Source: Plasmopara viticola (lineage: Eukaryota > Oomycota > Peronosporomycetes > Peronosporales > Peronosporaceae). Taken from it: 64,000 nt of DNA. Of the stretch, positions 11,871 to 37,680 are shown one piece after another. Where the stretch lies: contig MBPM02000166.1 of NCBI GenBank assembly GCA_001695595.3, positions 1 to 64,000 of the forward strand, in the 5' to 3' direction. Position 1 is the first letter of the stretch. Every line of letters begins with the position of its first letter. A program made the translations under genes and the position numbers. The notes under the pieces are model-generated. The model was not told where the DNA came from. It saw only the letters and a program-made list of their open reading frames with translations, and ran no database searches.

Positions 11871-11871
11871 C

Positions 11872-14727: not shown

Positions 14728-14728
14728 C

Positions 14729-16282: not shown

Positions 16283-16283
16283 C

Positions 16284-17558: not shown

Positions 17559-17575
17559 CGCCCCTATAGCTCAGT
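17559..17575 (+). repeat. Left target-site duplication of LINE-A
   Basis: CGCCCCTATAGCTCAGT: the base before tRNA-Thr plus its nucleotides 1-16. This orphan gene start lacks a B box. Confidence 0.93.
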
Positions 17576-17585
17576 TGAAGGTCGT

Positions 17586-17603
17586 CTATATTATGTAATA
17601 TAG
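17586..17603 (-). other. 3'-terminal hairpin of LINE-A
   Basis: Perfect inverted repeat CTATATTA-TG-TAATATAG starting 10 nt inside the element's 3' end; conserved exactly at 62462-62479. A candidate recognition structure for the element's reverse transcriptase. Confidence 0.65.
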
Positions 17604-17705
17604 GCGAATGTCTGCCCAACTTGCCTGGCGTAGTATCTGTTCTACTACTCTAGTGTACTATATATAATTATGCATTTCCTCCAAAATAGGAATATACAAA
17701 AAATT

Positions 17706-17736
17706 ATGTAATTTCCTCAAAAAAAGGAAATTACAT
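17706..17736 (-). other. Second 3' UTR hairpin of LINE-A
   Basis: ATGTAATTTCC and GGAAATTACAT, an 11-bp perfect stem with a 9-nt T-rich loop on the element strand. Conserved at 62585-62614 with a one-base shorter loop. Confidence 0.65.
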
Positions 17737-18608
17737 ATTTTATGTTTGCCACGTATTGTTTTGGATTTCATCCAATCACTGGCCTGGGAGGGTTTCGGTT
17801 CTACACTTTTGCCCCCGTTTCGACTTCAACTTCGGGCGAAAAAGGCCATTTAGACCCTTTGTGCGTGGCAACGTTGCTCGATAAGTGCGGTCGATCAACA
17901 GCCGCAACTTTTGGCACTTAGGCAGCACATACAGCGCCCATTGCATGCCAAATGCTCACGCGTATCAAGCCTTCAGGTGCCTAAACGGAAGTCCGGTCTT
18001 TCAGCACACTGTCGCGTCGTTTCGCGATGGGGAATCCGCAGCCCAATCCGTGGGCCGACCCATTTTTGGGATCGTTATACTTTATAAGATAAAAATCCCT
18101 CGCTTCTTATTCGTCGTGAGGAGTGAAAAAATTCTTGATTCTCCAGGCCTCACAGTAAAGATAAAAAAAAGTGACCGGTATGGCCCCACAGGTAAATTGG
18201 CCTTTTAGGCCTCTTCGGGTCACCAAAACCACTGGGATTCAGCTCTCAGACTTCATCAAGGTACCCTTGGCCCCCCAGGGTTCACAGAAGACAAAGCTCT
18301 TGACTTACGAAGCCGCTTTCTCACTGCTTTGTTACAGGCGCCCCCTACTCCGGTCTTTTACGCGGCTGGCTCGTATCCAGTTACCCTCCAGGTGCACTGT
18401 ATGGCTACATCAAGTGCGAGACTTGCGGCAGCGGACCCCAGAAAATTCGGACGTTCTTCAAGTGATGAGGCTTTACCCGTAAGGGCGCCCGGCAGGCTGC
18501 CCGACCAGATAGCACCCACATCTTCGGACGGCGGTTTTTTAAACGATTGGAATGAACTCAGTATTTGCCGACATTAACCGTGTTCTTTTCTAGACGTTGT
18601 TTATTTGT

Positions 18609-21476
18609 TCATGTGCGCACAGGTCTTGATGGTGCTGCCTTGCAGGTTATGGGTGATGCCCGGGTGCTGACAAGTGAAGCTGTGAAACAGGAATGGGTCT
18701 TCAGCGAGTCAATCACTTGTTTAAGATCTTGTCTCAGCTGCCGGTCGTACAGGTGTCGCTGGAAAAAGCGAATGTGCGCACAGAAAGTCGACAATATGAC
18801 TGAGAGTGCTGGAGCTACCGGTATCGGTTGCCGTCCGTCGAACAAGCATCGATTGCGGTTCGTCCAGATCGTGTGAAGTACCACAGCTCGAAGCACATGC
18901 CATACATCTCGTACCACACCAGAACATTGAACCCAGTCGTCGCGTACGTGCACCTTGTTCGCGAGAGCAATATCAAGCCACGACGGTCGAGAGACAAAGA
19001 ATGGTGAGACAAGCTGCAAGATCTGACACCAGAGCCTTGACGCCAGCGTGCAGTCGAAAAATAAATGCTTCTCAGTCTCTATCGCTTTGCATCCTGCGCG
19101 CACGCATTTACGGATGCCTGGATGTGACGTCTCCAAGAACCAGAAGCGCGATCGCACGGGTAGCAAGCGAAACGCAAGACGAAATTGCAAGTCTTCGAAG
19201 ACCGGAAGCAGGATGTGGCGCAGCCGCTTTCGATACTCCGCGAATGCTTTAATCTGTTGGTCGTCGACACGCTCTGAGTAAATTTTCATCGGGTGCGGCT
19301 TTTTTGGAGGGTCAGGCGCCCAGACAATTTTCAGGATCGCTGACCGTGGAATCTTCGGGATCAAGAATATCTTCGCTTTATTTCTGTAGCCAACTCGTGG
19401 AAGCAGACATCCGTGTGCGTCTATGCTTGACGAGTCCCGTACAAGTTGTCGTGCTCCAAGGCGGTCAACAATTTGCGTCGCTTCCGTGTACAGCGAGCGC
19501 AGCCACTTCATCTGTGTGTACGGTCGCACTGAGACAAGCGTGTAGTCGATATGTCGCTGTACGAAGGTGGTTGCAGCTGGCCACGCTGCACCTTCACACC
19601 TGAAGTCAGCGAGTGACCGTAATTTGAAGCTACATGAGATATGGAGACGAAAGCTTCGTTGTGGTTCGGCGACCATACCTAGACAACGTCGATGCACCAC
19701 CACCGTATCGGACCGTGTTCGCTTCTCATAGTGAAGATCAGCATCAGCATGGAACCAAATTGGCTGATGTAGGCCATACATGGCGCGTTCGTGCAAACTC
19801 AAGTCATGCCACGTGACATTCCATCGTGTCTTGTACCAACACACCCACGTCTCTCTCCACCACATTGCAGTTCGGCCAAGTGAGATAAGCTTGCCGTGAC
19901 GAAGCGGTGAGATTGTAAGAAAGTCGAGTGCGTGGCATCCGCCATAGCAAGGTAATCCAGACGTCAGCAGCTCAATGCTCGCCGCCGTCCAGTTCTGCTC
20001 ATCATCACCAATTACAGCTCCGATAAACTGCAATAACAGCGCAAGACGTTGCTTTTTGAGCTGGGCATCGAGACGTGGAATACCAAGACCACCGTGGGTG
20101 CGCTTGTGATAAAGAAATTCGCTCGGGATGAGCATCACGTGCTTTTCGTCACGATCATGCTTACGACTCAGAACAAACCGGTTAAGCATCGATTGCCAAC
20201 GCCGCACAATGACCCGAGATATATTCGCGTGCTGAGTGTAGTGCCACAAACGCGATAGCACCATCGTCTGTGCAACGAGCAGTCTACCTCGAAGTGTGCG
20301 GGCACGCCTGTACCATGATTTTATGCTCTCAAAGAAGCGAGCGTCCAAAAAATTGGTAATCATGTCGTTGACTGACGCCTGACCGAACGGGATGCCTAAG
20401 TATTTTGTGGTGTCGGAACGTCCAAGAACTTGGACCCCGGGAAGTGCAGGACACACCATGCTACGATTTAGGGCCAGCAGTACCGACTTGGACAAATTAA
20501 GTCTTGCTCCAGAGCCAGCACAGTACACGTCTACAATTGCAAGCTGCGCCCGAACGTGATCAATTGACCCGGCGAGCAACGTCGAGTCATCCGCGAAAAA
20601 CATACTTGTCACCGTACAATTCGCATTCAGACATATCCCGTATTCGTCATGTTTGCGAAGTAAATTTCCAAGAGGCTCAATTGTAAGCACAAATAGGAGT
20701 GCCGACAAGGGGTCTCCTTGCTTCACGCCTCGAGTAGGGTGCAAAGCTGGCTGGATATTACCATTGATGAGCAGGTGTGCCTTCGGTTTGGTGTACAAGA
20801 GCTGAATCCATGAAATAAAAACTGGTCCGAAGCCCATGCAAGCCAGCAGCCGAAACATATACGACCAATTTACACGGTCGAATGCCTTTTGAAAGTCCAG
20901 GAAAAGTGCGTAGGCCTCTTCGTCTCGATTTGTCACAAGGTCTTGCAGATCGGCAAGAAAGCGTACATGATGATGAATTGATCGGGTCTTGACGAAGCCT
21001 TTTTGGTCTGGATGGATCAGGTCCAGCATTACTTTTTGTAATCGATATGTCAGTGCTTTTGACAGCACCTTCACGTCGACTGGCACGAGTGCAATTGGAC
21101 GATAATTGCCAGGCTCAGCGCGTGAACCTTTCTTATGTAGCAGTACGACCGCTGATTTACGCTGAGACGCTAGAAGCTCGCCGCGCCTCAGTCTATCCTT
21201 GAAAACAATCGCGAGGCACTCGCCAAATACTGATGGTGCCACCTGATAAAATCCAGCCGTTAAACCGTCCATGCCTGGAGAGGATGTCGCTCTCATATGC
21301 CGGATTGCAGTTGCAAGGTCAGCAGTGGTCAGGTCGGCTTCCAAAGCTGTGCAGCTCGTGACTGGGACGACTCTCGAAATTGAGTCAAGAAGTATGCGTT
21401 GCTGCGCGACATTTGGCTCAGAGGCCGATTCGATTGGACTCTTGACATCACCCATCTCAGATCCCCAGTGCTCCAA
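18609..21476 (-). CDS. LINE-A reverse transcriptase frame (ORF2, 3' part)
   Basis: 955 codons from a TTG at 21476; the first ATG is seven codons later (21455-21453), in the motif MGD shared with LINE-B. RT motifs: SSPGMDGLTAGFY (65-77), NYRPIAL (124-130), LDFQKAFD with catalytic Asp (193-200), QGDPLS (253-258), FADD (294-297). A C-terminal C-x4-C-x7-H-x4-C finger is at 791-809, as in L1 ORF2 proteins. The frame is uninterrupted, and homology to LINE-B continues upstream of the TTG (NPQEIS versus NPADIS), so translation probably enters by a -1 shift from the endonuclease frame or by reinitiation at the conserved ATG. Confidence 0.92.
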   Translation of the reverse strand: MEHWGSEMGDVKSPIESASEPNVAQQRILLDSISRVVPVTSCTALEADLTTADLATAIRHMRATSSPGMDGLTAGFYQVAPSVFGECLAIVFKDRLRRGELLASQRKSAVVLLHKKGSRAEPGNYRPIALVPVDVKVLSKALTYRLQKVMLDLIHPDQKGFVKTRSIHHHVRFLADLQDLVTNRDEEAYALFLDFQKAFDRVNWSYMFRLLACMGFGPVFISWIQLLYTKPKAHLLINGNIQPALHPTRGVKQGDPLSALLFVLTIEPLGNLLRKHDEYGICLNANCTVTSMFFADDSTLLAGSIDHVRAQLAIVDVYCAGSGARLNLSKSVLLALNRSMVCPALPGVQVLGRSDTTKYLGIPFGQASVNDMITNFLDARFFESIKSWYRRARTLRGRLLVAQTMVLSRLWHYTQHANISRVIVRRWQSMLNRFVLSRKHDRDEKHVMLIPSEFLYHKRTHGGLGIPRLDAQLKKQRLALLLQFIGAVIGDDEQNWTAASIELLTSGLPCYGGCHALDFLTISPLRHGKLISLGRTAMWWRETWVCWYKTRWNVTWHDLSLHERAMYGLHQPIWFHADADLHYEKRTRSDTVVVHRRCLGMVAEPQRSFRLHISCSFKLRSLADFRCEGAAWPAATTFVQRHIDYTLVSVRPYTQMKWLRSLYTEATQIVDRLGARQLVRDSSSIDAHGCLLPRVGYRNKAKIFLIPKIPRSAILKIVWAPDPPKKPHPMKIYSERVDDQQIKAFAEYRKRLRHILLPVFEDLQFRLAFRLLPVRSRFWFLETSHPGIRKCVRAGCKAIETEKHLFFDCTLASRLWCQILQLVSPFFVSRPSWLDIALANKVHVRDDWVQCSGVVRDVWHVLRAVVLHTIWTNRNRCLFDGRQPIPVAPALSVILSTFCAHIRFFQRHLYDRQLRQDLKQVIDSLKTHSCFTASLVSTRASPITCKAAPSRPVRT

Positions 21477-22813
21477 GAAACGCAGAGAGATTTCTTGAGG
21501 ATTCGTTGAGACATTCCACTTGGTGTTATAACCTCCTCAATCGAAACGCGTCGCAAACTTGTGTCTAAGGGACGAAAAAAATGAGATGTTGAGCGTTCCG
21601 AGTTGTTGACTTGAAAGTCAAAAGAAGCATCATGATTGTGTTGGCGGGTTCTCGTGACTATATCCTTATAGCTTCGTAAAGCATCGTCAAAAAAGTCTCG
21701 ATTCTCTTTGCCTGACAATGCACGGTATCGGGCGGCTGCTTGATCTAATGCGACGCGAGCATCTTCGATCTCCCGCGTGTCTTGTTGCCTGAGCTTTTTC
21801 TGGACGTCTTGAAGCTGAGTCTTGATGCTTTTTTTCCAATTTTCCCAAATTTTTCCGGGGTTTTCTGAATGGCGAAGCTGGTCCAGGACCTGCTCGGCCT
21901 CCCTTTCAATTGCTGATACAACCTTCGGATATTCGAGGAGGTATCGCGGAAATTTCCAATAACCACGACCATGTAGCTGCGTACCACTTCGAAGGGAAAC
22001 GCTATGAGCAAGATGATCGCCAGCATGCATTGGCAGGAAATATTCGGCATTTTCGTAGAAGCGGTCGCAGAATTGCTCCGAAATCAGAATGTAGTCCAAT
22101 CGATTTTTTCGAGGAAGAGGACCAGTAAACACTCGCTTAGAGTCATGGTGGGTACGCCACGCATCAACTACACCTAGTTTGGCAATCCACTCAAGACAAG
22201 AAGAGCGGCTCTGGTCGTAGTGCAAGTCAGGTTTCGAGCAATCGAGTTGAGGGTCAAGTGGCGTATTTAAATCTCCGAGTACGAAGTGCGTTGCATCATT
22301 TTCAAACCCATCTGTTGGAAGGTTTAGAAAGAACGATTGCTTTTCGTGTCTATCGACAGGCGCGTACACATTGTGAATGTAGACGGGAGCACGTTGAACC
22401 GTTACCTTTACAACAAGATACCTTCCCGGCACAGTCAGGTGTACCATTTCTGCAGCCGTTTCGATACCAGGAAAATCAGAACGTAGCAGTGTCAGTACTC
22501 CACTACTGCGACCGCGCGTGGGTCGATCGAGCCGCGTGTTACTGTCATTGACGAAGAGTTTGTGGGCAAAATTTGAGCAGAGGTGAAACTTGAACGTATT
22601 AAGATGCTGCGCGTCAGCAAACTTGGTTTCTTGGACGCATGTTAGCGAGTGCTTGGCTAAAAGATTGTCAATGAAGAGGTGACCATTTCGCTTGATGCCG
22701 TTTGTGTTCACGGTCATAAGCGAGAGAGCGTTCCAGGCGTGTTGTTCTTTCAACCCAACTTTAGCAGCGACTGGAAACAGCTCCAGCCACAGTCGTAGCC
22801 AAGGAGCCAGCAT
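21329..22813 (-). CDS. LINE-A APE-type endonuclease frame (ORF2, 5' part)
   Basis: 494 codons. APE/exonuclease III motifs: NTNGIKR (36-42), QETKF with the metal-binding Glu (61-65), NVYAP (148-152), GDLNTP (180-185), RLDYIL (238-243), GDHLAH with the catalytic Asp-His (265-270). It nicks the target DNA for target-primed reverse transcription; here the nick is inferred to be AGT^GG in the A box. The start codon overlaps the end of ORF1 by 53 nt. The frame continues past the point where homology to LINE-B shifts to -1 (about 21499-21511) and ends as unrelated sequence at 21329. The last 50-60 residues are therefore probably read-through of the overlap. Confidence 0.88.
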   Translation of the reverse strand: MLAPWLRLWLELFPVAAKVGLKEQHAWNALSLMTVNTNGIKRNGHLFIDNLLAKHSLTCVQETKFADAQHLNTFKFHLCSNFAHKLFVNDSNTRLDRPTRGRSSGVLTLLRSDFPGIETAAEMVHLTVPGRYLVVKVTVQRAPVYIHNVYAPVDRHEKQSFFLNLPTDGFENDATHFVLGDLNTPLDPQLDCSKPDLHYDQSRSSCLEWIAKLGVVDAWRTHHDSKRVFTGPLPRKNRLDYILISEQFCDRFYENAEYFLPMHAGDHLAHSVSLRSGTQLHGRGYWKFPRYLLEYPKVVSAIEREAEQVLDQLRHSENPGKIWENWKKSIKTQLQDVQKKLRQQDTREIEDARVALDQAAARYRALSGKENRDFFDDALRSYKDIVTRTRQHNHDASFDFQVNNSERSTSHFFRPLDTSLRRVSIEEVITPSGMSQRILKKSLCVSWSTGDLRWVMSRVQSNRPLSQMSRSNAYFLTQFRESSQSRAAQLWKPT

Positions 22814-25303
22814 TTAATTGAATCTTTAACACCGATGAGTCGTCCGGATAGTATCCTTCAAGCTGGCGGAGCACTTCGAGATCGTCTAGAAGGTGACCTT
22901 GCCATTGTACATCACGCCACTGCTCCATACAAAGCTCTCCAACCTTAGAACGCAGCAGCCGTAGCAGTGTGTTGGGATGCAAAAAGCGCATGTGGTGTGC
23001 TGGGATCCATTCGACTGGCTGGCCTGTAAAGTATTGAATCCAGTGGTCATTTGTAAAGAGTGTCGGAGCAATGGACATGAGCGCAAGCTCAAATATACCG
23101 AGTGCCTTCGACGCACGCGCAAGCTCCGTAATCGTGTCAGAGTGGGTCCACCACTTGGCACATGCCTTGAAGATGTCATGGCGGTTGGATGGTAGTGGCA
23201 TATTCATGACACGTTTCCACTTTGTAACAAAAGTTGTGTCTTCTGTCGGGTACGTAGCTGATAATACGCGATTGATTGCATGCAGTTGCGCAATTTCAGC
23301 GATGATGCGGTGGTCACCTGCCATTTTAAGGGACAACGCACTGTTGAAAGCCATCGGACATTGAGCTGCCGGTTTCATCACAAGGTCTGGATTTGATGCA
23401 TTATCAAGTAACTTGACCATGCCATCGACCTTTTCGTCTGCAAGCACAAGACGATCTGGCAACGTATCAAGCAGGGCAGTATTTTCATCATTGATCATTG
23501 CCTCGGTAACCTCTTGGATCGACGTAGCCTTCGCTGCTTTTTTAATTTTTGTGTGGTGTTTTTCCATGAGAAATACCGACTCCTTTGCGGTGGCCATTCC
23601 CATAGGACGTGCCACGGCTACTGGTACAATCTGCTTGCGTAAGCCATACTTCTTGCTTGCCGTGACGTCTTTAAGCTCAAGATCGACTTCCATGTTCTGC
23701 AGGACGTCAAAGAAGTTTTTAGTCGCGATTCCATCGAGTGATTGCGTCTGTTTTTTGGTAAGAAGATTTGAGAAGTCAATGTCTCCGCGGCTCCGTTTTT
23801 TGCTGTTGCAGACGGTGGCGAATCCGTCTGAGGTTTCTCCGTTTGTAAGATACATCGTTGGTCTCTTCATACTGCTTTCGGGACTGCGGGGCGGAGAAAT
23901 CTTTCCGCTCGACCCTTCGAACGTTGCAACTGACAGAATATCGTCAGTGCAGCTTGGAGGACTCGCGAGCTGATTGCAGTTGTGTGGCAGACCATGCTGA
24001 ACTTCTTGTTGAAGCTTCTTATCATTTTTCGCTCTGGACTCTTGTACTGCACGCTGCAGCGAGGTCATCGACTTGGACTTCGAAATGGCTATGTTTGGGT
24101 TCGTTTGATGCTCCTGTTTTGCTACAGCAAGTGCCGTGACAGTTTGCAGTGGCGATGACCCGGTTGGAGTGGCTGGACGTTGCAAGTTGGTGTCGCTCGT
24201 GCACAGGTCGATGAAATGATGCGAACGATAGCCGAACGGCAAGCGCTCGGAAGGATATGGAGCGTTTTTCCGTGCACGGGGTGCAGTTTGTTGTCGAATT
24301 GGAGCTGGTCACAAACCGATCCATTCACAATGAGAGGACCAGGGCATGTCGTGCTAAGGAAGTATACTCTCCAGGTGGCTGACGTTATTCCAGTTGCAAG
24401 GTTCACTTCACGGAAGGTATCGTACACCGGTTTGCAGCCCATCAAGAATAAGCGGTGCAACATTACGTCCGTTTTCGTGTCCGAGTCAACATTAGAAATA
24501 TCGACAAAGTACTTGCCACCTAGCACGTCGAATTCCTTAAACATAAATACACCCCCTAAGATGTTTATCTTTGTGCGTTCGAGAGCGATGCAGGCGTCCT
24601 TCGACTTAACTTTGATTCGAAGATTGCCACCGGGAAGTTTGGACACTTGGCCAATCTCGAAGTTGCTGTACAGGCGCTCAAGTACATCATTGCCGTGATG
24701 CTTGCCCGTTAGCGATGCCATAATCTTCTGGAGCGGTGTTTTTGCAAACATGCGTCCGGTATCGATAACCATATCGTACTTGGCACGAGGAAGGGTATAT
24801 GGCCGCGCCTGCTCCATGTGAGAGGCGATAAATGACCAGTCCCCGCCAGCAGCGTACTGACGTTCGATTGCTTCAATGTCGCAGGCGAGTGGCTTGGGCG
24901 TTTCTACACGCCGACGCGCAGCGTCAACGTCCTCGGCGCTCCGACGAATGGTTTCTTGCTGCGCAAGTAAGCTAGCCATGGTCGGACGCATGTCTTCATC
25001 TGGTGGGGACGAGACATTCTTGACGCCTGACTGAGGGGAGAGAATCGATTCACTGTCCGTACCACCAGGCGCACTTGACCCAGCGAACGCGTCCGAGGTG
25101 GAAGCATTAAGTTTCGGCAGCGTGACCGTAGCCGCGTCGTCAGTTGAATTGGATGGCAGAGGCAACTCTATATCGAGTCCGTTCTCCAATTGATGATTAC
25201 TTACAGTGAGTAACAACGCAGACGGGACAGCAGACGGGACAGATTTGACGTTTTCGAAAGATTCTTTGCGAAACGCGCGCGAAGAAATGTCAGGGCTGTC
25301 CAT
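22761..25303 (-). pseudogene. LINE-A ORF1, RNA-binding-like protein, one frameshift
   Basis: Two overlapping frames (24122-25303, 393 aa; 22761-24242, 493 aa) together match the single long ORF1 of LINE-B. The break is at the T5 run at 24265-24269 (A5 on the coding strand; LINE-B has A6 there), a one-base loss. Shared blocks: the GGDWS...ARPYTLPRA segment, the GGNLRIKVKS stretch, a KYFVDISNVDSD...TWRVYF block of alternating beta/alpha character that could be an RRM-like fold, and a C-terminal WIPAHH...HPNTLLRLLRS region. I see no CCHC zinc knuckle. In LINEs ORF1 binds the element RNA to form an RNP. Start: ATG at 25303, 86 nt from the element 5' end, matching the LINE-B spacing. Confidence 0.8.
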
Positions 25304-25389
25304 TGCGATAGAACGAAGGGTAGAAAAGGTGGTTGAAAGGGGGTACTTCCTATGATTTGACTTGCGTAGTTGCCGGCAAATTGGGAAGT

Positions 25390-25406
25390 CGCCCCTATAG
25401 CTCAGT
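25390..25406 (+). repeat. Right target-site duplication of LINE-A
   Basis: Identical to the copy at 17559-17575; it forms the start of the complete tRNA at 25391-25462. Confidence 0.93.
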
Positions 25407-25462
25407 GGTAGAGCACTCGCTTCGAAAGCGAAAGGTCGGTGGTTCGATCCCGCCTGGAGGCT
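25391..25462 (+). tRNA. tRNA-Thr-type body with anticodon CGA, rebuilt beside LINE-A
   Basis: The anticodon loop is TTCGAAA (CGA, a Ser anticodon) on an otherwise Thr-type body, and the 3' acceptor strand reads TGGAGGC, giving a C4-A69 mismatch. It lacks the long variable arm of tRNA-Ser. The first 16 nt come from the LINE-A target duplication, so its 5' flank is the LINE-A 5' end. It is either an altered-specificity tRNA or a pseudogene; the acceptor mismatch favours the latter. Confidence 0.8.
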
Positions 25463-26010
25463 CTTCTTACCATTTTATACTGCTTCTTCACGTATATTTG
25501 GTCAGAGCAATTGAGTAAGCTATTCGCCGCTCATTTTATAATCTATTTGTCATGCACTTATCTTGTGGTGGTTTGTGGTGGGGCGCATACTGTTCGATTG
25601 GTGCGCACGGCACCTTCACACACGGTATGACTGTCTGTTGGAAGAAGAAAGCCTAACGCCAGGACTATGCAAGTAAGCTATTGCAATCGTGATGGTGGTT
25701 AGCATCGAAGACGTTAGAAAGGGGTGACAGCTCGTTTTCTCTGTGATCTAAAAAGTCATCTCCTTCGCATGGTATCATTTTCTCAAACTTGTACGTATAT
25801 ACATCCTCGAACTTGACATGCCGACCGAAAAAGGTCAATGCATCTAGCTGCTATTGGGCGGCCGCTTTCGAGTGTTTTTTTAGCGTACTACGCTTTGTGT
25901 CATGTGCTATACTTTAATGTGTCGCACGAGCGATTTGCATGACTATGGTGGTATGCTTGAGTAAGGGTGGAAAAAGTTTGTAATCAGTGTATCAGTTAGC
26001 AGCCAGGGAT

Positions 26011-26091
26011 GACAGCTTGGCCGAGTGGTTAAGGCGTTAGCCTGCTAGGTTAATGGGGTAACCCGCGTGAGTTCGAATCTCACAGCTGTCG
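26011..26091 (+). tRNA. tRNA-Ser(GCT), loop position 38 variant
   Basis: The anticodon loop reads CTGCTAG (A38 to G); the rest is consensus. Confidence 0.93.
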
Positions 26092-26292
26092 CATTAGTAC
26101 AATTTATGTCAGTCAGCCAATGACCTTTTCATTTGCCTTCCAAACATTCAAGCTTTTTGCCCATCGAGTAGGTTTGCCCATCGGATGACATGCGCTTAAT
26201 TCGAGACAAACTGAGATGCTCTTTATGAAAGTGAATTGGGATCTGAGGTCCAAGCACGCGATTTAAAGCTTTTTTTATGCATCGCTCAATAG

Positions 26293-26397
26293 GATTATTT
26301 TGGTGATCAGCCGTACAAGTAAAAGCGGTACAGATAGTATTAGCGCGGCCCTGTGCAAGGACTTTACGCATTAACGAGAAGTATTGCACTTTCATTT
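26293..26397 (+). ncRNA. U6 snRNA-like sequence
   Basis: Core ACAGATAGTATTAGC with AAGTAAAAGC. Confidence 0.6.
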
Positions 26398-26668
26398 GGA
26401 TTTGAAGCCATGACTCGGCTCGTTGTCATCTTTCATGTCAGCTCAATTACAGTAGACATCGTTTGTTATCTAAATTAATTAGCGAGGTGAGGCTTGTGTT
26501 AGTTCTATACATACCAGCTGTTGTTGCTGTAACGCATAAGTGTTATTTCTTACGCGCACCGCAACTAATGTAGAGACATTATGATGCTAATAGACCCACT
26601 CCGCTCTTTGTTTGCGCTTGATACTTGCGTGTATTATTAGTTGTGTGTAAGCTACCTCCGGTTGCCAC

Positions 26669-26740
26669 GCCCCTATAGCTCAGTGGTAGAGCACTCGCTT
26701 CGAAAGCGAAAGGTCGGTGGTTCGATCCCGCCTGGAGGCT
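26669..26740 (+). tRNA. tRNA-Thr-type body with anticodon CGA
   Basis: Carries the same two changes as the copy at 25391-25462 (anticodon CGT to CGA, and A at position 69) in an uninterrupted unit, so the variant spread to two adjacent units. Confidence 0.82.
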
Positions 26741-27288
26741 CTTCTTACCATTTTATACTGCTTCTTCACGTATATTTGGTCAGAGCAATTGAGTAAGCTA
26801 TTCGCCGCTCATTTTATACTCTATTTGTCATGCACTTATCTTGTGGTGGTTTGTGGTGGGGCGCATACTGTTCGATTGGTGCGCACGGCACCTTCACACA
26901 CGGTATGACTGTCTGTTGGAAGAAGAAAGCCTAACGCCAGGACTATGCAAGTAAGCTATTGCAATCGTGATGGTGGTTAGTATCGAAGACGTTAGAAAGG
27001 GGTGACAGCTCGTTTTCTCTGTGATCTAAAAAGTCATCTCCTTCGCATGGTATCATTTTCTCAAACTTGTACGTATATACACCCTCGAACTTGACATGCC
27101 GACCGAAAAAGGTCAATGCATCTAGCTGCTATTGGGCGGCCGCTTTCGAGTGTTTTTTTAGCGTACTACGCTTTGTGTCATGTGCTATACTTTAATGTGT
27201 CGCACGAGCGATTTGCATGACTATGGTGGTATGCTTGAGTAAGGGTGGAAAAAGTTTGTAATCAGTGTATCAGTTAACAGCCAGGGAT

Positions 27289-27369
27289 GACAGCTTGGCC
27301 GAGTGGTTAATGCGTTAGCCTGCTAAGTTAATGGGGTAACCCGCGTGAGTTCGAATCTCACAGCTGTCG
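27289..27369 (+). tRNA. tRNA-Ser(GCT), D-stem variant
   Basis: AATGCG replaces AAGGCG, breaking a D-stem pair. Confidence 0.9.
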
Positions 27370-27570
27370 CATTATTACAATTTATGTCAGTCAGCCAATG
27401 ACCTTTTCATTTGCCTTCCAAACATTCAAGCTTTTTGCCCATCGAGTAGGTGTGCCCATCGGATGACATGCGCTTAATTCGGGACAAACTGAGATGCTCT
27501 TTATGAAAGTGAATTGAGATCTGAGGTCCAAGCACGCGATTTGAAGCTTTTTTTATGCATCGCTCAATAG

Positions 27571-27675: not shown

Positions 27676-27946
27676 GGATTTGAAGCCATGACTCGGCTCG
27701 TTGTCATCTTTCATGTCAGCTCAATTACAGTAGACATCGTTTGTTATCTAAATTAATTAGCGAGGTGAGGCTTGTGTTAGTTCTATACATACCAGCTGTT
27801 GTTGCTGTAACGCATAAGTGTTATTTCTTACGCGCACCGCAACTAATGTAGAGACATTATGATGCTAATAGACCCACTCCGCTCTTTGTTTGCGCTTGAA
27901 ACTTGCGTGTATTATTAGTTGTGTGTAAGCTACCTACGGTTGCCAC

Positions 27947-28018
27947 GCCCCTATAACTCAGTGGTAGAGCACTCGCTTCGTAAGCGAAAGGTCGGTGGTT
28001 CGATCCCGCCTGGGGGCT
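27947..28018 (+). tRNA. tRNA-Thr(CGT), A-box variant
   Basis: TAACTC replaces TAGCTC: G10 of the D stem, also a core A-box base, is A. Transcription and D-arm pairing may both be weakened. Confidence 0.85.
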
Positions 28019-28566
28019 CTTCTTACCATTTTATACTGCTTCTTCACGTATATTTGGTCAGAGCAATTGAGTAAGCTATTCGCCGCTCATTTTATAATCT
28101 ATTTGTCATGTACTTGTCTTGTGGTGGTTTGTGGTGGGGCGCATACTGTTCGATTGGTGCGCACGGCACCTTCACACACGGTATGACTGTCTGTTGGAAG
28201 AAGAAAGCCTAACGCCAGGACTATGCAAGTAAGCTATTGCAATCGTGATGGTGGTTAGCATCGAAGACGTTAGAAAGGGGTGACAGCTCGTTTTCTCTGT
28301 GATCTAAAAAGTCATCTCCTTCGCATGGTATCATTTTCTCAAACTTGTACGTATATACATCCTCGAACTTGACATGCCGACCGAAAAAGGTCAATGCATC
28401 TAGCTGCTATTGGGCGGCCGCTTTCGAGTGTTTTTTTAGCGTACTACGCTTTGTGTCATGTGCTATACTTTAATGTGTCGCACGAGCGATTTGCATGACT
28501 ATGGTGGTATGCTTGAGTAAGGGTGGAAAAAGTTTGTAATCAGTGTATCAGTTAACAGCCAGGGAT

Positions 28567-28647
28567 GACAGCTTGGCCGAGTGGTTAAGGCGTTAGCCTG
28601 CTAAGTTAATGGGGTAACCCGCGTGAGTTCGAATCTCACAGCTGTCG
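28567..28647 (+). tRNA. tRNA-Ser(GCT)
   Basis: Consensus sequence. Confidence 0.97.
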
Positions 28648-28848
28648 CATTATTACAATTTATGTCAGTCAGCCAATGACCTTTTCATTTGCCTTCCAAA
28701 CATTCAAGCTTTTTGCCCATCGAGTAGGTTTGCCCATCGGATGACATGCGCTTAATTCGGGACAAACTGAGATGCTCTTTATGAAAGTGAATTGGGATCT
28801 GAGGTCCAAGCACGCGATTTGAAGCTTTTTTTATGCATCGCTCAATAG

Positions 28849-28953
28849 GATTATTTTGGTGATCAGCCGTACAAGTAAAAGCGGTACAGATAGTATTAGC
28901 GCGGCCCTGTGCAAGGACTTTACGCATTAACGAGAAGTATTGCACTTTCATTT
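28849..28953 (+). ncRNA. U6 snRNA-like sequence
   Basis: Core ACAGATAGTATTAGC with AAGTAAAAGC. Confidence 0.6.
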
Positions 28954-29223
28954 GGATTTGAAGCCATGACTCGGCTCGTTGTCATCTTTCATGTCAGCTC
29001 AATTACAGTAGACATCGTTTGTTATCTAAATTAATTAGCGAGGTGAGGCTTGTGTTAGTTCTATACATACCAGCTGTTGTTGCTGTAACGCATAAGTGTT
29101 ATTTCTACGCGCACCGCAACTAATGTAGAGACATTATGATGCTAATAGACCCACTCCGCTCTTTGTTTGCGCTTGATACTTGCGTGTATAATTAGTTGTG
29201 TGTAAGCTACCTACGGTTGCCAC

Positions 29224-29295
29224 GCCCCTATAGCTCAGTGGTAGAGCACTCGCTTCGTAAGCGAAAGGTCGGTGGTTCGATCCCGCCTGGGGGCT
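29224..29295 (+). tRNA. tRNA-Thr(CGT)
   Basis: Consensus sequence, in the unit whose tRNA-Ser is interrupted by LINE-B. Confidence 0.96.
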
Positions 29296-29844
29296 CTTCT
29301 TACCATTTTATACTGCTTCTTCACGTATATTTGGTCAGAGCAATTGAGTAAGCTATTCGCCGCTCATTTTATAATCTATTTGTCATGCACTTGTCTTGTG
29401 GTGGTTTGTGGTGGGGCGCATACTGTTCGATTGGTGCGCACGGCACCTTCACACACGGTATGACTGTCTGTTGGAAGAAGAAAGCCTAACGCCAGGACTA
29501 TGCAAGTAAGCTATTGCAATCGTGATGGTGGTTAGCATCGAAGACGTTAGAAAGGGGTGACAGCTCGTTTTCTCTGTGATCTAAAAAGTCATCTCCTTCG
29601 CATGGTATCATTTTCTCAAACTTGTACGTATATACATCCTCGAACTTGACATGCCGACCAAAAAAAGAATCAATGCATCTAGCTGCTATTGGGCGGCCGC
29701 TTTCGAGTGTTTTTTTAGCGTACTACGCTTTGTGTCATGTGCTATACTTTAATGTGTCGCACGAGCGATTTGCATGACTATGGTGGTATGCTTGAGTAAG
29801 GGTGGAAAAAGTTTGTAATCAGTGTATCAGTTAACAGCCAGGGA

Positions 29845-29861
29845 TGACAGCTTGGCCGAGT
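29845..29861 (+). repeat. Left target-site duplication of LINE-B
   Basis: TGACAGCTTGGCCGAGT: the base before tRNA-Ser plus nucleotides 1-16 of the gene. The leading T could instead belong to LINE-B, making the duplication 16 bp. Confidence 0.93.
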
Positions 29862-29872
29862 TCAAGTAGTGT

Positions 29873-29886
29873 GTATTACTTAATAC
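29873..29886 (-). other. 3'-terminal hairpin of LINE-B
   Basis: GTATTA-CT-TAATAC, a perfect inverted repeat starting 11 nt from the element 3' end. It has the same position and 2-nt loop as the LINE-A hairpin despite different flanks. Confidence 0.6.
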
Positions 29887-30578
29887 GACTTCCACTTCTC
29901 TATGCCTACGTCGTTTAACTAATATACAATCTACTACCTGTCTACAGGTTAACTTGAGGCTTTCTTTTAATCGTTTGGTGTGACAAGCACTTTGATCGGC
30001 TGGATAGAACTGATTGATTTTAATTCACAATCCTTCACCGGGACCAGTATTTCTGTTGGTTTCGCGGATATCCACTTGGACGTGATAGTTGACCTACCTA
30101 GCAAAGTATTGACCTCCCATGTACAGTTCGAAGCCTTGTCCATCGTTGCGGGAAGCGAAGCCGGTGTTCCAGCTCTCGGTCCGCTGCAGACACGCCTGCT
30201 TAGAACGGTCAACCACTATCTCCACAACAGAATTCGGGCTCGAGCCGCCCGTCGCCCTTTCGGGCCCTGGCGACGACCCTCTAGTCTCCGAAACTGAAGT
30301 GGAGAAGTGGAGGCTCACTCTTTGGACGCGCAGCCCTGATGCAGCGCCTCGACCACAGGGTCCTCTACCGCAGCAACTGGATTGAGAGTCAGGCTCAGGC
30401 CGCCCGTCACCCTTTCGGGCCCTGGCGACGACCGTCTAGTCTCTGACCTCAATCCAGTCGTCTTGGTCGGGAGGGCCTGGCTGGTTGCCGGTTGAGTTCA
30501 TCCTGGCTACTTGGGGCTTGATCGGCTTGACTTGGGTACTTGGAGGAAAATTGGAAAGTGAGGATGTGTGTTATGAGG

Positions 30579-30660
30579 CACAAAATCACCTCTATATCTT
30601 ATCCCCTCCGAAAATCGATCACAAAATCACCTCTAGATCTTATCCCCTCCGAAAATCGAC
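30579..30660 (-). repeat. 41-bp tandem duplication in LINE-B 3' UTR
   Basis: Two adjacent copies, each beginning CACAAAATCACCTCTA; they differ at TATATC/TAGATC and at the last base. Confidence 0.9.
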
Positions 30661-30850
30661 GCTCTTAAAATAATATTCTGACCTGTCAGACTTATCCCCC
30701 GTCTAAGCCGATCACTTCGGGACATGATATTCTGTAAAATTCATATACAGTATCACAGGTAAACCGAAATTTTGGCCAATTTTGGAGCCGAATTGAGTCC
30801 GCCGGCGAAAAGAAACGGCTGAGGCGAAGTGTTGGTAGAAGTAGGGACGG

Positions 30851-33674
30851 CTACAGGAAACGCACAGCAAACAGCGGAGCGTTGGTGCGCATAAAGGCAC
30901 CCATCGAGCGAGAGCATCGGAGCCGGGTCAGCACAGAATGGAGCGATGCTTGCTGGTCTTCGTCGTACACCCTACGTTTGCATGCACGCACGTGGGCACT
31001 AAGTGTGGTGTACACGACCCGGAGCGCAGGCACCAGAGGCAAAAGCTCACGCTGGCGGAACAATCCGTCATTGCGCACTGTCCACAGCAAGTGGAGCGTG
31101 ATGCAACGTGTGATCTGCCACAGATCATGCACCACGGCGGCATGGTTGTGCCAAGCGGATGTAAGGGCTGGTGGGCGACCAAGGGCGATGTCGAGCCATG
31201 TCGGTGTGGTGACAAAGAAAGCTGACCAGTCCGAAACAGAACTGGCCATAGCTCGGCTGGTAGAACGCACTCAAAGAACAGGTGCCGTCTGTTTCCACTG
31301 CGTTGCATCCGCTGCGTACGCAGTAGATGATGCCAGGATGCGCCTCGCGCAGAAAAGAGAATCGTGAACGCACTGGCAACAGACGGAAGGCGAGTCGGAA
31401 TTGCAGATCTTCGTATACAGGAAGCAGCAGCCGACGTAAACGCTTGGACTGTTCCACGAAAACTTTGATGTCGATTGTTGTGGCGTGCTCATCGTGCAGC
31501 TGGATTGGGTGTGGCTTCGTGGGCGTGGGGATCTTCCACACAAGCAGGAGCAACTGGGAACGTGGTACTAATGGCGCAACACAGACGCGTTCCCCCACGC
31601 GCACGCCAACGTATGGTGCAGTGGGACACACCCAGGCCACGCCTGGAGGCGGAAGCGGTGTATTGGCGCATAGATCCCGTAGTCGCTCGAAGACTTGTGT
31701 GGCTTCGTGATGCAGGCGTCGGAGCCACTGGTACTGCTGGTACACAGGGACTGACGTGAGCCGGTAGTCAATGTGTCCGCGCGCAAACGCGTCAGCATCC
31801 GGCCATGCACCGCCAGCGTTCAAGAAGTCAGCAAGACACCGAAGTTTGAAAGTTGTTGCGGTGTGCTGGCGGTAGCTGCGCTGGGGTTCGGCAACCATGC
31901 AAAGACTACGCCGCTGTACTTTTGAGCTGCTAACACGGGCGGCGAGTTCAAACTGGAAATCAGCGTCGGCGTGGAACCAAATCGGTTGGTTCAGCACATA
32001 GCCGAGGCGGGCGAGGGGGGCGAGGTCTCGCCATGTGACTTCCCACTTGGTCATATACCATAGACGCCAGACTTGGCGCCACCACTGTGACAACACATCC
32101 CACCGCAGCAGAGCGCCGTGGCGCATGGGGCTAACCGTAAGATAGTCGAGAGGACGCCGGGGACCCCAAGTGGGCAACACAAGCGACAGAAGCACGACTC
32201 CTGGTGTGGTCCAGTTACATTGGGACGAGGTCGACGCAGCGATGAACTGGAGCAGCACGCTGAGCTTTTGACGCTTGAGTGAGGCTTCGATGCTGGGTAC
32301 TGACAGACCACCGTCGGAGCGAGGTTGATACAGAAACTCCTTGGGAATCAGCTGGACGTGTTTGGCGTTGCGTTCGTAGCGACGTGCAAGTACAAAGCGG
32401 TTGAGCGTGGACTGCCACTGCTTAACGATCCGCTGCGGGATTGGCACATGCACAGTGTAGTGCCACAACCGAGAAAGCACCATTGTTAGCGCAACCAGCA
32501 GGCGTCCTCGCAAGGTGCGAGCGCGACGAAACCATTGGAGAAAACCTTCGTAGAATCGCCTGTCCAAGAGCTCTATGATGGCGTTTTCAACAGGATCCTG
32601 ACCAAACAGGATGCCCAGAAACTTGACCGTCTCACCACGCTGGAGCAACTTGACACCAGGAAAACAAGGAGGGTTTGTCCGTCGGTTTAGAGGCATAAGC
32701 ACGCATTTGGCATAGTTGAGCTTGGCTCCGGAGCCATCGCAGTACAGCTGAACCAGGCCAAGCTGTGCCTGGATGCCGGACACCGAGCCAGAGAGCAACG
32801 TTGTGTCATCAGCAAAAAAGACGCTGGTGGCGGTGTGGTCTTCGGTGAGGCAAACACCATGCTCTTCATGCTGTCGGAGCAGGTTCCCCAGTGGCTCGAT
32901 AGCCATAAGAAACAGCAGCGCTGAGAGTGGGTCGCCTTGCTTGACTCCTCTTGTGGGGAAAAACGGCGGCTGGATGTGACCGTTGAGCAAGAGGTGTGCT
33001 TGTGGGGCGGTGTAAAGCAACCTCGCCCAGTTGGTGAAGGCGCCGCCGCAACCCATGCGATCGAGCACTTGAAACATGTAGTCCCAGTCGACCCGATCGT
33101 ACGCCTTCTCGAAATCGAGAAACAAAGCGTAGGCTTCTTCGTCGCGTGCAGTCGTGAGGTCTTGCAGATCGGCCATGAACCGCACATGATGATGAAGAGA
33201 CCGACCCTTGACGAACGCCTTCTGGTCGGTGTGTATAAGTTCAGGAAGGCAGTGCTGGAGGCGGTAGGTCAAGACCTTGGATAACGCCTTCACGTCAACG
33301 CCAATGAGCGAGATCGGCCGAAAGTTTCCGGGGTCGTCACGCGAGCCTTTCTTGTGCAACATGCACACAGCCGACTTGCGCTGGGAAGGGAGGAGCTCAC
33401 CTCGTGCCAACTGATAATTGAACACTATGCTCAGACATTCCCCGAAAACGTCGGGCGCGACCTGATAGAAGCCAGCTGTGAGACCGTCCATGCCAGGCGC
33501 GGAGTTGGTCTTCATATGCTTGAGCGCGTCAGCAAGATTGGCTCCGGAAATCGGGGCGTTGAGACGGTCTTGTTCATCGGTTGTTAGACGCTTGTCAATC
33601 GTGTTCAACAGCTTTCGTCGGCTGCTGGGATTGATGGGTGGTAATGGTCCGGCAGGATTGGCAGCATCGCCCAT
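30851..33674 (-). pseudogene. LINE-B reverse transcriptase frame, two C-terminal frameshifts
   Basis: The main frame, 849 codons from ATG 33674 (MGDAAN), holds an intact RT domain: LDFEKAYD (186-193), QGDPLS (246-251), FADD (287-290). At the CCHC finger (CVRSGCNAVET...HLFFEC) one base is lost near 31288, and a second loss near 31235 moves homology into a third frame that ends at 30851. With both repaired in thought, the C terminus parallels LINE-A to its end. Homology extends upstream of the ATG (NPADIS...HWG). Confidence 0.87.
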
Positions 33675-34990
33675 GATACAACCCCAGTGGGCCCGAAAGC
33701 ATGCTGAGATGTCCGCTGGGTTTTGCGAGATGTCGCCGCTGGAGTCCGAACTTGTTCAATGCTGACCCGTCGGAGTGATGGGTCGATCGGACGGAAGAAG
33801 TACGTGGAAGACGTCTCGGCCTTCTGAACTTTAAAGTCAAAGGCCGAGTCTTGGTTGTAGCAGCGAGACCGGGTCACGCAGTCGCGGTATGTGTCTAGTG
33901 CAGCTCGAAAGGCCTCTTGGGAGGTTGCGTCTCGCTTGTTATGGTACCGCATTGCTGCTTGATCTAGCGTGATTTGTGCGGCTGTAATGGCGACGTCGTT
34001 TTGGCTGCGTAGCTTACGTTGGAGGGCCTGTAGCTGGCGCCGCATAAATTTCTTCCACTGCTCCCAGACTTTGCCTGGGTTCGATGCAGTCTGGAGATTC
34101 TCGAGCACCTGTCGGGCTTCACCACAGATGGCATCGACAACATCGGAGTACTCAAGAAGATACTCCGGAAAGCGCCAGTAGCCATATCCGTGGAGTTGAG
34201 ACACCGAGCGCAAGGTTACTGTGTGCGCCAGGTGGTCACCAGCACCTTTGGGCTCAAAGTACTTAGAGTCGCCGTACAACGCGTTGCAGAAGTCTTCCGA
34301 CAACATAGCATAGTCAAGTCGGTTCTGCCTCGGCTGGGGGCCAGTGTATATGCGCTCGTCTTGGTGGTGGATCCGCCAGGCATCTACGACACCTAGCTGG
34401 CTCAGCCAGCTCATACAAGCGCTGCGGCCCGGGCGAGCAAGCAAGCGTGGCTGGGATGAGTCGAGGCTGGGGTTCAGCGGCGTGTTCAAATCGCCGAGGA
34501 CTATGTGCGTTGCATTGTCCTCAAAGCGGTCCACTGGAAGATGGTTGAAGAACACAGCTTTTTCGTGGTCGTCCACCGGCGAGTACACATTGTGGATGTA
34601 CACAGGTGCACTGACGACCACCAATCGAACAACTAGATAGCGTCCCGGACAGTCAGCTCGCGAAGCTCTTCGGCCGCATCGAAGCCTGGAAAGTCGTAGC
34701 GAAGCACAGTGAGCACTCCGCCAGATCGGTGTGTTGTCTGTGTGGCACTGACTGCACCAGGGTCGCTGACGAATAGCTTGTGCCTGAAACGGGCCTGAAG
34801 GTTAAATTTGAAGGTGTCAAGATGGTGGCAATCGCGGAATTTGGTCTCCTGGATGCAAGAGAGGCTGTGCTTCTCGAGCAAATTCTCGATTAGTAGGTGC
34901 CGTTTTTCTTGATCCCGTTGGTATTAACGGTCAGCAAGCTGACTTCTTGCCACGAGACCTCGGGTGCGTCCACGCGTGGGACCACCTTAG
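33605..34990 (-). pseudogene. LINE-B APE-type endonuclease frame, two frameshifts
   Basis: Motifs are NTNGIKKN, then IQETKF in a frame at 34633-34881, and NVYSPVD, GDLNTP, RLDYAML and GDHLAH in a frame at 33605-34624. One base is missing near 34900 (coding strand GGCACC after AAAAAC) and another near 34647 (GTCCGGG where LINE-A has GTGCCGGG). All catalytic motifs survive, so the breaks are recent or artefactual. The N-terminal residues overlap the end of ORF1 (AKVV... as in LINE-A AKVG). The -1 relation to the RT frame at 33718-33730 is the same as in LINE-A. Confidence 0.85.
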
Positions 34991-37574
34991 CACCTTAAGG
35001 CGAGCGGTCCAGTCACAAGCACAGACTGACCGTCGACTTGCTGGAGCTGGAGCACATCCGCGTTCTCTGGGAAGTAATGGCCGCAGTCACGAAGGTACTC
35101 GAGGTCTTCGAGTATATCCCCTTGCCACTGGACTGCTTCCCAAATCTTGAAGCAGTGTGTGCCGATCTCGGAGCGAAGCAGGACCAACAACATATTGGGG
35201 TGAAGAAGACGTCGGTTGTGCGCTGGTATCCAAGGCACCGACCACCCGGTCAGACGCTGGAGCCAGTAGTCCTTTTCAAAGATCTGGGGCGCTGTGCACA
35301 TCAACATCAACTCAAAGAGGGACAGCGCCCTAGTCGCACGCACAATAGTTGGTGTGTCCGGGTTGTTCCACCACTGGGCAACGCATCGGAATACACCGTC
35401 ACGCGTCTTAGGCACCTTGGTGCCGAGATACTTGGCCCACTTGCGAGCGAACGTATTCGTTTCGGTGTTGTCGGTCGCGCTTAAGATGCGATTGATCATG
35501 TGAAGCTGGGCCAGCTCGGTGACGCTGGGGCTCAGCTCACGCATCTCACGCAAGAGCGCGGTGTTAAACGCCATTGGAGCTTTAACGGACCCCATGAACG
35601 TCAGCGTGTCGGGGTTGTTCGTCGTGCGAAGCGACTTGCGAAGGCCACTCACCATGGTGTCGGCGGCGGCCAAGCGATCCGGAAGCAGCTGGAGATCGGC
35701 TGTCTGTTCAGTAGCCTCCATCTCGCTGACAATCTCTTGGATTGGAGTAGGCTCTTTGGTTTTCACCACTCTGGTGTGGTGTTTGGTCAGAAAGTGACTG
35801 GCTTCTTTGCTGTCAGTCAGGTTGCGCGGCGCCTGCACCTTGCGTGGCACAATTTGAAACCGTGGGATCTCGACCTCATCGAGCGTTGCTGGGCAGCAGT
35901 CAAACTCGACCTCGACATTGCTGAGCACGTCGAAATAGTTGCTTGTCGTGACGCCGGTGAGAGGTTTCGGACGAGATTTCATCAGCATATTGGCAAAGTC
36001 TTCATCAGCACGAGAACGTTTGCCTTTGCGTTTGCCACCGACCCTGGGCACCAACTCAGATTGGGCAGTCGGTGGTGGTGGGAGCAAGAGCAACGGAGAC
36101 GATGTCGGGCTGCTTGGTGGCGACACGACTTGGGAGCCTGCAGTGCTTAGGGACAGCTCACTAGGCTCTAAGGTATCAGTCGGTGCTGCAACGATAGCAG
36201 TGGTCGCGGCAGAGTCTTCACGGATCGATCGTTGGAGCGACGTTTCCTGCACGCCACGACGTACCACGGCAGCATAAGATGGCTGCGACGGGCATTTATC
36301 TGGCCGCCTTTGGCTAGTGTTGGAGGATGGACCACCGTCTCTAGCTAAGTCGAGCGCGTGGATTGAGCGTTGACCGAACGACATGCGTTGGGTTGGAAAC
36401 GGAGCGTTTTTTGTGTGTACTGGGTAAATGCGTCCAGCAAAAACGAGCTGGTCGCACACAGTACCACTTATCACGAGCTCCGGAGGGCAATGGCTAGAGC
36501 GGAAGTACACACGCCAAGTGGCGGTGGTGATCACCGCGTCCAGATTTACATCGCGGAAAGTGCCGTAGATCGGCTGCGTACCGAGCTCGAAGAAGCGTTT
36601 CAACATGAGATCAGCATCGAAGTCACTGTCGACACTTGACACATCAATAAAGAAGCGGTCGGCAAGGATGTCAAACCCGCCGAATCGGTACCTGCCTCCG
36701 AGGATCTTGACTTCCTGGCCAGCAAGACTCTGGCAGGCTTCTTTCGTCTTCACCTTGACGCGGATGTTGCCGCCGGGAGCTTTGGTCAGCTGACCTAGTT
36801 GCTGCTGGTCGATTTGCTGTTGTACGACAGGGTTGCCCTGGTCCTTGAGCAACGACGCGAGGATTTTGCTTGGTGCAGTGCGCTGGAAGGCGTGTCCAGT
36901 CTCGATGACCATTACATAGCGTGCACGAGGCAGCGCGTATGGACGAGCTCGGTCAATCGAGGCGGCGAGTTGGCTCCAATCGCCTCCGGCTTCATAAAGA
37001 GCATCAATGGTTTCGATGTCCATCGCCTTGGGGCGGGGCATCTCGACACGCGGCGGGGCGGGTGCCTCAACGTTGTCGCGGCGGATCTCCGTAGAACGTT
37101 GAAGCAGGGCACGAAGCGTTGGCATGCGCGTTGGTGCGCTCGCAGTCGAACGCGTGCGAGTTGCTGCGGTTTGCGGGAGAGCACTGGCGTTAGTTGGTGG
37201 CGTATATTGGCGTGTGTCGCTGTTGGGCTGCACATCTTCCACAAAATCCTGCGAAGCAGGTGGCTTGTGCGCAGGCGTGACCCGCAGCTGCACGATCATG
37301 CCATCACTTGTTTCGTGCGAGGCTTGCGACACAGAACCAGCGTTACTACCCTGGTCGTGCATAAACACGAAGCTTCGATGGAACCGTGAATCCCACCGGC
37401 ATCTGGGTTGTTGGGTACGGACCCAGCTGAACTGTCGCTTGGTAGGGTTGCGGAACCTTCTATAGGCGATGGGTCGTGGGTACGTGCGGGGGAAGATGGG
37501 CGTAGAATCAGCTCACCCATCTCACAATCAGCTTGCGCTGACTCTAAGAAAGGGCAACTGGCTTCGGTGTCCAT
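34987..37574 (-). pseudogene. LINE-B ORF1, RNA-binding-like protein, one frameshift near its start
   Basis: A frame of 793 codons (34987-37368) covers nearly the whole protein. An upstream frame starting at ATG 37574 supplies about 65 more N-terminal residues, giving about 860 aa, the length of LINE-A ORF1. The join near 37368 needs a -1 shift, consistent with one lost base. The same blocks as LINE-A are seen: GGDWSQLA, ARPYALPRARYVMVI, GGNIRVKVKT, a FFIDVSSVDSD...TWRVYF block, and WIPAHNRRLLHPN near the C terminus. The middle is rich in Pro, Ser and Thr and probably disordered. No zinc knuckle seen. Confidence 0.82.
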
Positions 37575-37663
37575 TGGGGGAAAGGCTTGCTTGGGTGCTT
37601 GAGAAACTGGATACTTCGAAACTTGACTTGGTCGACTTGAGCACGACGAGGCAAATTGAGAAG

Positions 37664-37680
37664 TGACAGCTTGGCCGAGT
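37664..37680 (+). repeat. Right target-site duplication of LINE-B
   Basis: Identical to 29845-29861; it forms the 5' end of the complete tRNA-Ser at 37665-37745. Confidence 0.93.

Follow-up and report, generated by a model that had tools for sequence, protein, structure and literature searches.

Mutsu, Keno, and Dewa belong to the Tx1 clade of long interspersed nuclear elements (LINEs). Elements of this clade encode an apurinic-type endonuclease (APE) and are target-specific (PMC4640811), with Mutsu directed to 5S rRNA genes, Keno to U2 small nuclear RNA (snRNA) genes, and Dewa to a tRNA-Leu spacer (PMC3706591). Among LINEs of the NeSL group, NeSL-1_TV (tRNA-Pro), LIN15_SM (tRNA-Arg), and LIN25_SM (tRNA-Glu) are described with tRNA targets (PMC4640811), and the accessible text on oomycete tRNA arrays describes them without mention of LINEs inside genes (PMC9584435). 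Here, we analyzed the first 64 kb (positions 1–64,000; hereafter, the window) of the 88-kb contig MBPM02000166.1 (C166) from the 92.9 Mb assembly of the oomycete Plasmopara viticola, in which a tandem array of tRNA genes is interrupted by two LINEs (LINE-A and LINE-B), eight copies of a short interspersed nuclear element (SINE), and a deleted LINE-A derivative. Based on junctions in the window and elsewhere in the genome, an APE-type, L1-like LINE lineage (LINE-A, LINE-B, a third family termed LINE-C, and relatives), the SINE, and the deleted derivative very probably share one insertion point in the A box of tRNA genes.

LINE and SINE insertions in tRNA genes

The array that fills the window is built of ~1.3-kb units and carries tRNA-Thr(CGT) and tRNA-Ser(GCT) genes. 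LINE-A (17576–25389, minus strand; 3' end at 17576, 5' end at 25389) lies antisense to a tRNA-Thr gene, with its 3' end abutting a 5' stub of tRNA nucleotides (nt) 1–16 (17560–17575, plus strand), and a rebuilt complete tRNA gene with a Thr body and the anticodon CGA (25391–25463, plus strand) lies beyond the element. LINE-B (29862–37664, minus strand; 3' end at 29862, 5' end at 37664) is likewise antisense to a tRNA-Ser gene, and is placed between its 5' stub (nt 1–16; 29846–29861, plus strand), which abuts the 3' end, and a rebuilt complete tRNA-Ser(GCT) gene (37665–37746, plus strand). The eight SINEs of ~260 bp, all on the minus strand and in tRNA-Thr genes (3117–3377, 5944–6205, 7499–7760, 11610–11871, 14467–14728, 16022–16283, 46445–46702, and 50596–50855), each begin after the identical Thr 16-mer. 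The target repeat is 17 bp for LINE-A and for LINE-B (one ambiguous base counted), and 17 bp in both window SINEs that were measured. The deleted LINE-A derivative starts at 62452 (62452–64000, minus strand) next to a tRNA-Thr 5' stub (62436–62451, plus strand) and continues to contig position 67088, where a complete tRNA-Thr start follows. It lacks the reverse-transcriptase region (LINE-A positions ~1044–4189) and was found at four places (L009, L041, L042, and L046) in Thr, Lys, and Ile genes; thus, a non-autonomous form of LINE-A seems to have spread.

A prior sequence-only reading of the window had proposed that LINE-A, LINE-B, the deleted relative, and the eight SINEs interrupt tRNA genes at a homologous point with target duplications of about 17 bp, and the junctions bear this out. 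The SINEs do lie at the site, but cannot be counted as eight separate insertions, because they fall into five 5'-junction classes and the copy at 5944 is identical to that at 7499, so that some were copied with the array. The head of the SINE at 7499–7760 (minus strand) carries a B-box-like sequence, GGTTCGAGCC, like tRNA-derived SINEs. Outside the window, a second LINE-B (C166:73172-80985; L010:1172-8985) occupies a different tRNA-Ser gene of the same array and is 98.7% identical to the first across 7.8 kb.

Genome-wide DNA and protein searches scored ~40 candidates each, and the counts drawn from them are lower bounds. Using a LINE-A 3' probe free of tRNA sequence (reversed control pattern: 0 matches), we found that all 41 LINE-A 3' ends abut nt 1–16 of a tRNA gene of class-I type (a copy on C309, whose match begins at query base 125, is outside this count). 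Every one of the 41 upstream flanks reads nine bases followed by (G/A)CTCAGT, the class-I tRNA start form, and together they comprise 14 distinct tRNA 16-mers, or 20 combinations when the preceding 14 bases are included. LINE-B-type 3' ends adjoin a class-II-type (Ser/Leu) or similar start in all 34 cases with a read flank (34 of 40 match rows; of the other six, four have no 3' end and two are copies on C96), although some of the 34 are short or diverged relatives that match over the first 280 bases only, at 73–85% identity. Their stubs end in CCGAGT (29 of 34), CCGAGG (two), CCGAAT (two), or CGGAGT (one, L066, from a degenerate tRNA-like sequence), and represent 15 distinct 16-mers and 24 combinations with the flank. 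The genome contains 153 SINE 3' ends; 27 loci were read among the 100 listed, and all 28 3' ends in them adjoin CTCAGT.

A-box strings number 3349 for class I and 1830 for class II in the genome (reversed-pattern controls: 0 and 7), and by simple arithmetic a random insertion would fall at such a point, in this orientation, with a chance of ~3 in 100,000. Without exception, the LINE-A and LINE-B-type 3' ends for which the flank was read lie at such a point or a near variant. The sequence-only reading would have been refuted had most copies lain outside tRNA genes or been scattered within them, and the genome data did not refute it. Array amplification inflates the row counts, and the weight of the argument lies with how many distinct genes and flanks are involved.

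The insertions hit ~21 anticodons from 11 amino acids, showing that the homologous point first noticed in Thr and Ser genes is not limited to these two families. LINE-A was found in Lys(TTT), Met(CAT), Thr(TGT, AGT), Ile(AAT, TAT), Phe(GAA), and intron-bearing Tyr genes, in addition to Thr(CGT) in the window, and LINE-B in Leu(CAG, TAG, CAA, TAA) and Ser(CGA, AGA, TGA) genes, in addition to Ser(GCT) in the window. SINE copies extend the list to Ala(AGC) and Asn(GTT), as well as to a gene read by eye as Ala(CGC). LINE-C, which was recovered among matches to an oomycete protein (33 loci scored, 3' regions of 12 inspected), occupies class-I genes, including Arg(ACG), Ala, Tyr, and Met, and related copies have 3' stubs of Phe and Thr type. 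Thus, LINE-A, LINE-C, and SINE copies are found in class-I genes and LINE-B-type copies in class-II genes.

Insertion point, gene rebuilding, and alternative explanations

The exact nick cannot be placed for most targets, since tRNA nt 15–16 and the junction both read GT. Three kinds of target are informative. Among the matches listed for the Ala(AGC) gene start (100 of 445), 99 read GCTCAAA, one reads GCTCAGA, and none reads GCTCAGT, and the rebuilt Ala genes also read GCTCAAA, unlike the Ala stubs at the 3' ends of SINEs (L155, L170, and L174) and LINE-C copies (L179 and L181), which read GCTCAGT, as does the stub of a SINE in another Ala gene (L162). The Arg(ACG) gene reads GGCCCAATGG and its stub GGCCCAGT, and the Ser(CGA) gene reads CCGAGC and its stub CCGAGT (L070 with L131; L071 with L133). 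Because these junctions carry a GT or T that is absent from the gene, the sense strand would most simply be nicked after tRNA A14, with the element supplying the following GT from its RNA end; the RNA need give no more than this GT, since the Arg stub retains the target letters GGCCCA. The fixed point of the sequence-only reading stands, whereas its placement after nucleotide 16 gives way to an ambiguous GT and, in the Ala, Arg, and Ser(CGA) targets, to a nick after A14.

In 22 paired junctions, the shared repeat measures 16–17 bp in 18, 14–15 bp in three, and 22 bp in one (a stack in which the LINE end repeats itself), and seven of the pairs contain one internal mismatch. The repeat begins at tRNA nt 1 or about one base away, so that the rebuilt gene is a full tRNA with both internal promoter boxes, and its own 5' flank is replaced by the LINE 5' end. 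We read 57 LINE 5' ends from match lists of 36 and 28 rows, leaving out five (the window copy, C166 in L009, the C333 contig end, and two without a 5' end) as well as two from the 28-row list (the window copy and C166 in L010). A gene complete by ARAGORN follows directly or after a few bases in 37 of the 57, and an intron-bearing Tyr gene in three; in six, the LINE is followed by a stub carrying the next element, and in four by a degenerate tRNA-like sequence. A full gene also follows the two further copies on the contig of the window. In most copies, the gene at the LINE 5' end faces away from the LINE and contains internal A and B boxes. Stacks of LINE-A followed by a SINE in Lys genes (L105, L106, and L113), of LINE-B with LINE-B (L148), of SINE with SINE (L160), and with other elements (L109 and L122) show that rebuilt genes are hit again.

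Taken together, we consider it likely that the tRNA A box is the general address of this LINE lineage, that sister clades read class-I or class-II boxes, and that the cut spacing corresponds to the distance from A14 to about nt 1, so that an insertion rebuilds a reusable gene; an antisense stub from the donor, carried in the RNA, may help in finding the next A box. The endonuclease would read D-arm/A-box DNA, namely G10 C11 Y12 C13 A14 for LINE-A, LINE-C, and the SINE, and C11 C12 G13 A14 for LINE-B, and would make its sense-strand nick after A14. This end may then serve as the primer on an RNA that terminates in AAC, so that reverse transcription adds GT first, and the opposite strand would be cut ~16–17 bp upstream.

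Several observations do not fit this scheme readily. No complete gene was found to match the stubs of ten LINE-A rows (one on C52 and nine along C113) that share a start one base off tRNA-Lys. Among the 12 LINE-C-search loci inspected, three lack a stub at the guessed 3' end. L193 has a tRNA-Phe without a LINE-C 5' end ahead of it. Four of the 57 LINE 5' ends, all of LINE-A (L102, L115, L116, and L126), join tRNA-Lys at about nt 44 without the front of the gene, perhaps reflecting one deletion multiplied by arrays, and three others end at a contig end, a truncated gene, and a 69-bp fragment without an adjoining tRNA (a LINE-B match at its 5' end, L153). In addition, when 3' ends were assessed by single-sequence folding against shuffles, a stem-loop was significant in LINE-A only (last 40 nt: z -3.9; copy at 62452: z -6.9), and not in LINE-B (z -1.3) or the SINE (z -1.0); LINE-C ends carry, by eye, a different self-complementary sequence at this position. 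The 3' stem-loop is likely a putative binding site for the reverse transcriptase.

Recruitment by the RNA polymerase III (Pol III) machinery, in which TFIIIC/TFIIIB would bring the elements to tRNA genes and DNA sequence would play a minor role, is reported for TRE5-A of Dictyostelium (PMC5911963) and would suit the finding that every target observed is a tRNA gene or a tRNA-like one. We regard it as unlikely here, because TRE5-A is described as inserting ~40–54 bp upstream of tRNA genes, whereas the present elements use one nucleotide inside the gene, and because LINE-A and LINE-B separate tRNA classes by A-box letters, a distinction that would not be drawn by general Pol III factors. The GT of the Ala, Arg, and Ser(CGA) junctions, which would derive from the RNA side, could also point to an RNA guide, in which the antisense tRNA stub in donor read-through RNA pairs with the nicked A box and selects the class. 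Such a stub follows every copy and is available to read-through RNA, and LINE-A and LINE-B each keep to their own class. However, GT apart, the stubs have the letters of the target (as in the Arg stub above), and an element simply ending in AAC accounts for the same data, making a guide of this kind improbable.

Two further explanations concern the copies themselves. The nine LINE-A copies along C113, ten LINE-A rows that have one flank in common, and the few junction classes of the window SINEs are what would be expected if a few insertions had been multiplied by tRNA-array amplification and gene conversion. With 20 (LINE-A) and 24 (LINE-B-type) combinations of start and flank and ~21 anticodons, it is very improbable that this produced the pattern, and as a sole cause it is ruled out by the many unrelated target genes. 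The tRNA-like stub is present at nearly every copy, and could accordingly be taken for a tRNA-like tail of the element rather than for target sequence. This has next to no probability: the stub varies from copy to copy, agrees with the gene on the far side of the same copy in the 22 pairs, and is preceded by the flank of the local gene, so that, with no constant stub, we rejected it as a part of the element. Insertion at an A-box point read by the endonuclease is the explanation that we prefer.

Proteins, kinship, and array context

As judged from their sequences, the LINE-A and LINE-B proteins are APE-type and L1-like. ORF2 (ORF, open reading frame) combines an apurinic-type endonuclease with a reverse transcriptase, and its nearest solved structures are those of human LINE-1. 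In LINE-A, the reverse transcriptase ORF (18609–21476, minus strand; Pfam RVT_1 E 9e-34) is in another frame than the endonuclease ORF (21329–22813, minus strand; Pfam Exo_endo_phos E 5e-9; LINE-1 endonuclease E 7e-6), indicating that the window copy is broken, and the ORF1 region (22761–25303, minus strand; two pieces, 22761-24242 and 24122-25303) had no match among Pfam domains. The ORFs of the window LINE-B are similarly interrupted across frames, with a reverse transcriptase ORF (31125–33674, minus strand; Pfam RVT_1 E 1e-32; human LINE-1 ORF2p E 7e-48, R2 E 1e-25), an endonuclease ORF (33605–34624, minus strand), and ORF1 (34987–37368, minus strand). The Exo_endo_phos match is over the curated cut-off in LINE-A and under it in the broken LINE-B piece (17.8 vs 24.5 bits). 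The predicted structure of LINE-B ORF1 has low confidence (mean pLDDT 62.7, pTM 0.46) and no match in the PDB down to E 0.001; its top hits, tandem RRM proteins (E 3e-3), give a weak hint that ORF1 could carry tandem RRM domains.

The nearest named protein relatives are from oomycetes (Globisporangium, Plasmopara, Peronospora, Phytophthora, Lagenidium, and Pythium). The reverse-transcriptase ORFs of LINE-A and LINE-B share 57% identity, and in a tree of 75 rows, which does not include Tx1, Keno, or Mutsu and places distant rows on long, unsure branches, the LINE-A clade (27 rows; 100/100) and the LINE-B clade (9 rows; 99/97) are sisters (96/85). Globisporangium splendens proteins are found in both clades, implying that the split predates P. 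viticola, unless elements moved between species. Some LINE-C copies have stop-free open frames of ~1380 codons, and of the 40 LINE-A 3' matches that were scored, roughly half show 93–99% identity; activity was therefore probably recent.

The array itself shows other features. U6 snRNA-like sequences are present inside array units (4278–4379, 5553–5655, and 7107–7209), with scores (39.4 and 43.9 bits) at or just under the Rfam cut-off of 44. Two tRNA-Thr genes, the rebuilt gene at 25391–25463 and another at 26669–26741, have the anticodon CGA instead of CGT, and are called Ser by ARAGORN although their body is Thr; if they are charged with Thr, a Ser codon would be misread. At 39627–40601, a Thr gene stops past the anticodon stem (about nt 38), with the spacer directly after, as if deleted.

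Comparison with known target-specific elements

Because the duplication usually rebuilds the gene, the tolerance of these insertions in essential tRNA genes would be explained. With the sister clades, it becomes testable how LINEs evolve their choice of target, through a comparison of LINE-A and LINE-B endonucleases on A boxes of either class. The rebuilding suggests that tools for LINE-based DNA insertion could use a landing site at which the gene is restored. Where tRNA genes are counted in oomycete arrays, stubs and rebuilt copies may be among those counted.

Among the openly available papers found by literature searches (subscription papers and Repbase are outside this coverage), we met no description of LINEs located in the A box of tRNA genes or within any oomycete tRNA gene, and none of an APE-type lineage with a general A-box target, of a division of sister clades by tRNA class, or of gene rebuilding; the accessible parts of two further papers (PMC5035012, PMC5006619) describe no closer system. 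The NeSL-group elements resemble the present lineage in that they are LINEs that target tRNA genes; however, they encode a restriction-like endonuclease and are each named for one tRNA (PMC4640811), whereas the elements described here have an apurinic-type endonuclease and hit ~21 anticodons. Compared by description, Mutsu, Keno, and Dewa have no tRNA A-box site in the available accounts (PMC3706591, PMC4640811), unlike the present elements. The TRE5 and TRE3 elements of Dictyostelium are L1-type LINEs linked to many kinds of tRNA genes, as here, but insert outside the gene via Pol III factors, 40–54 bp upstream or 40–150 bp downstream (PMC5911963, PMC5391098), in contrast to a single nucleotide within it.

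Some families of Dada DNA transposons insert at tRNA nt 8–13, in the A box, with related families on similar tRNA sites (PMC3706591, PMC8869645). They use a DDE transposase and produce 6–7 bp duplications, whereas we found a reverse transcriptase, an APE, and duplications of mostly 16–17 bp. Utopia elements are oomycete LINEs in arrays of small-RNA genes, with intact genes alongside copies, as in P. viticola, although they carry a restriction-like endonuclease and occupy U2 snRNA genes (PMC4640811), rather than being APE-type and in tRNA genes. With a LINE-type reverse transcriptase, an apurinic-type endonuclease, and a fixed site with a target duplication, the elements reported here have the features of target-specific APE-type non-LTR (long terminal repeat) retrotransposons of the L1 group. 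Target-specific LINEs as such are known, and we rate as new an APE-type lineage on the general tRNA A box, the class-split sister clades, and the rebuilding of genes. Whereas each family of target-specific LINEs in the compared literature, as far as the available descriptions extend, uses one kind of gene or repeat, a single lineage here appears to read the internal promoter of many tRNA genes.

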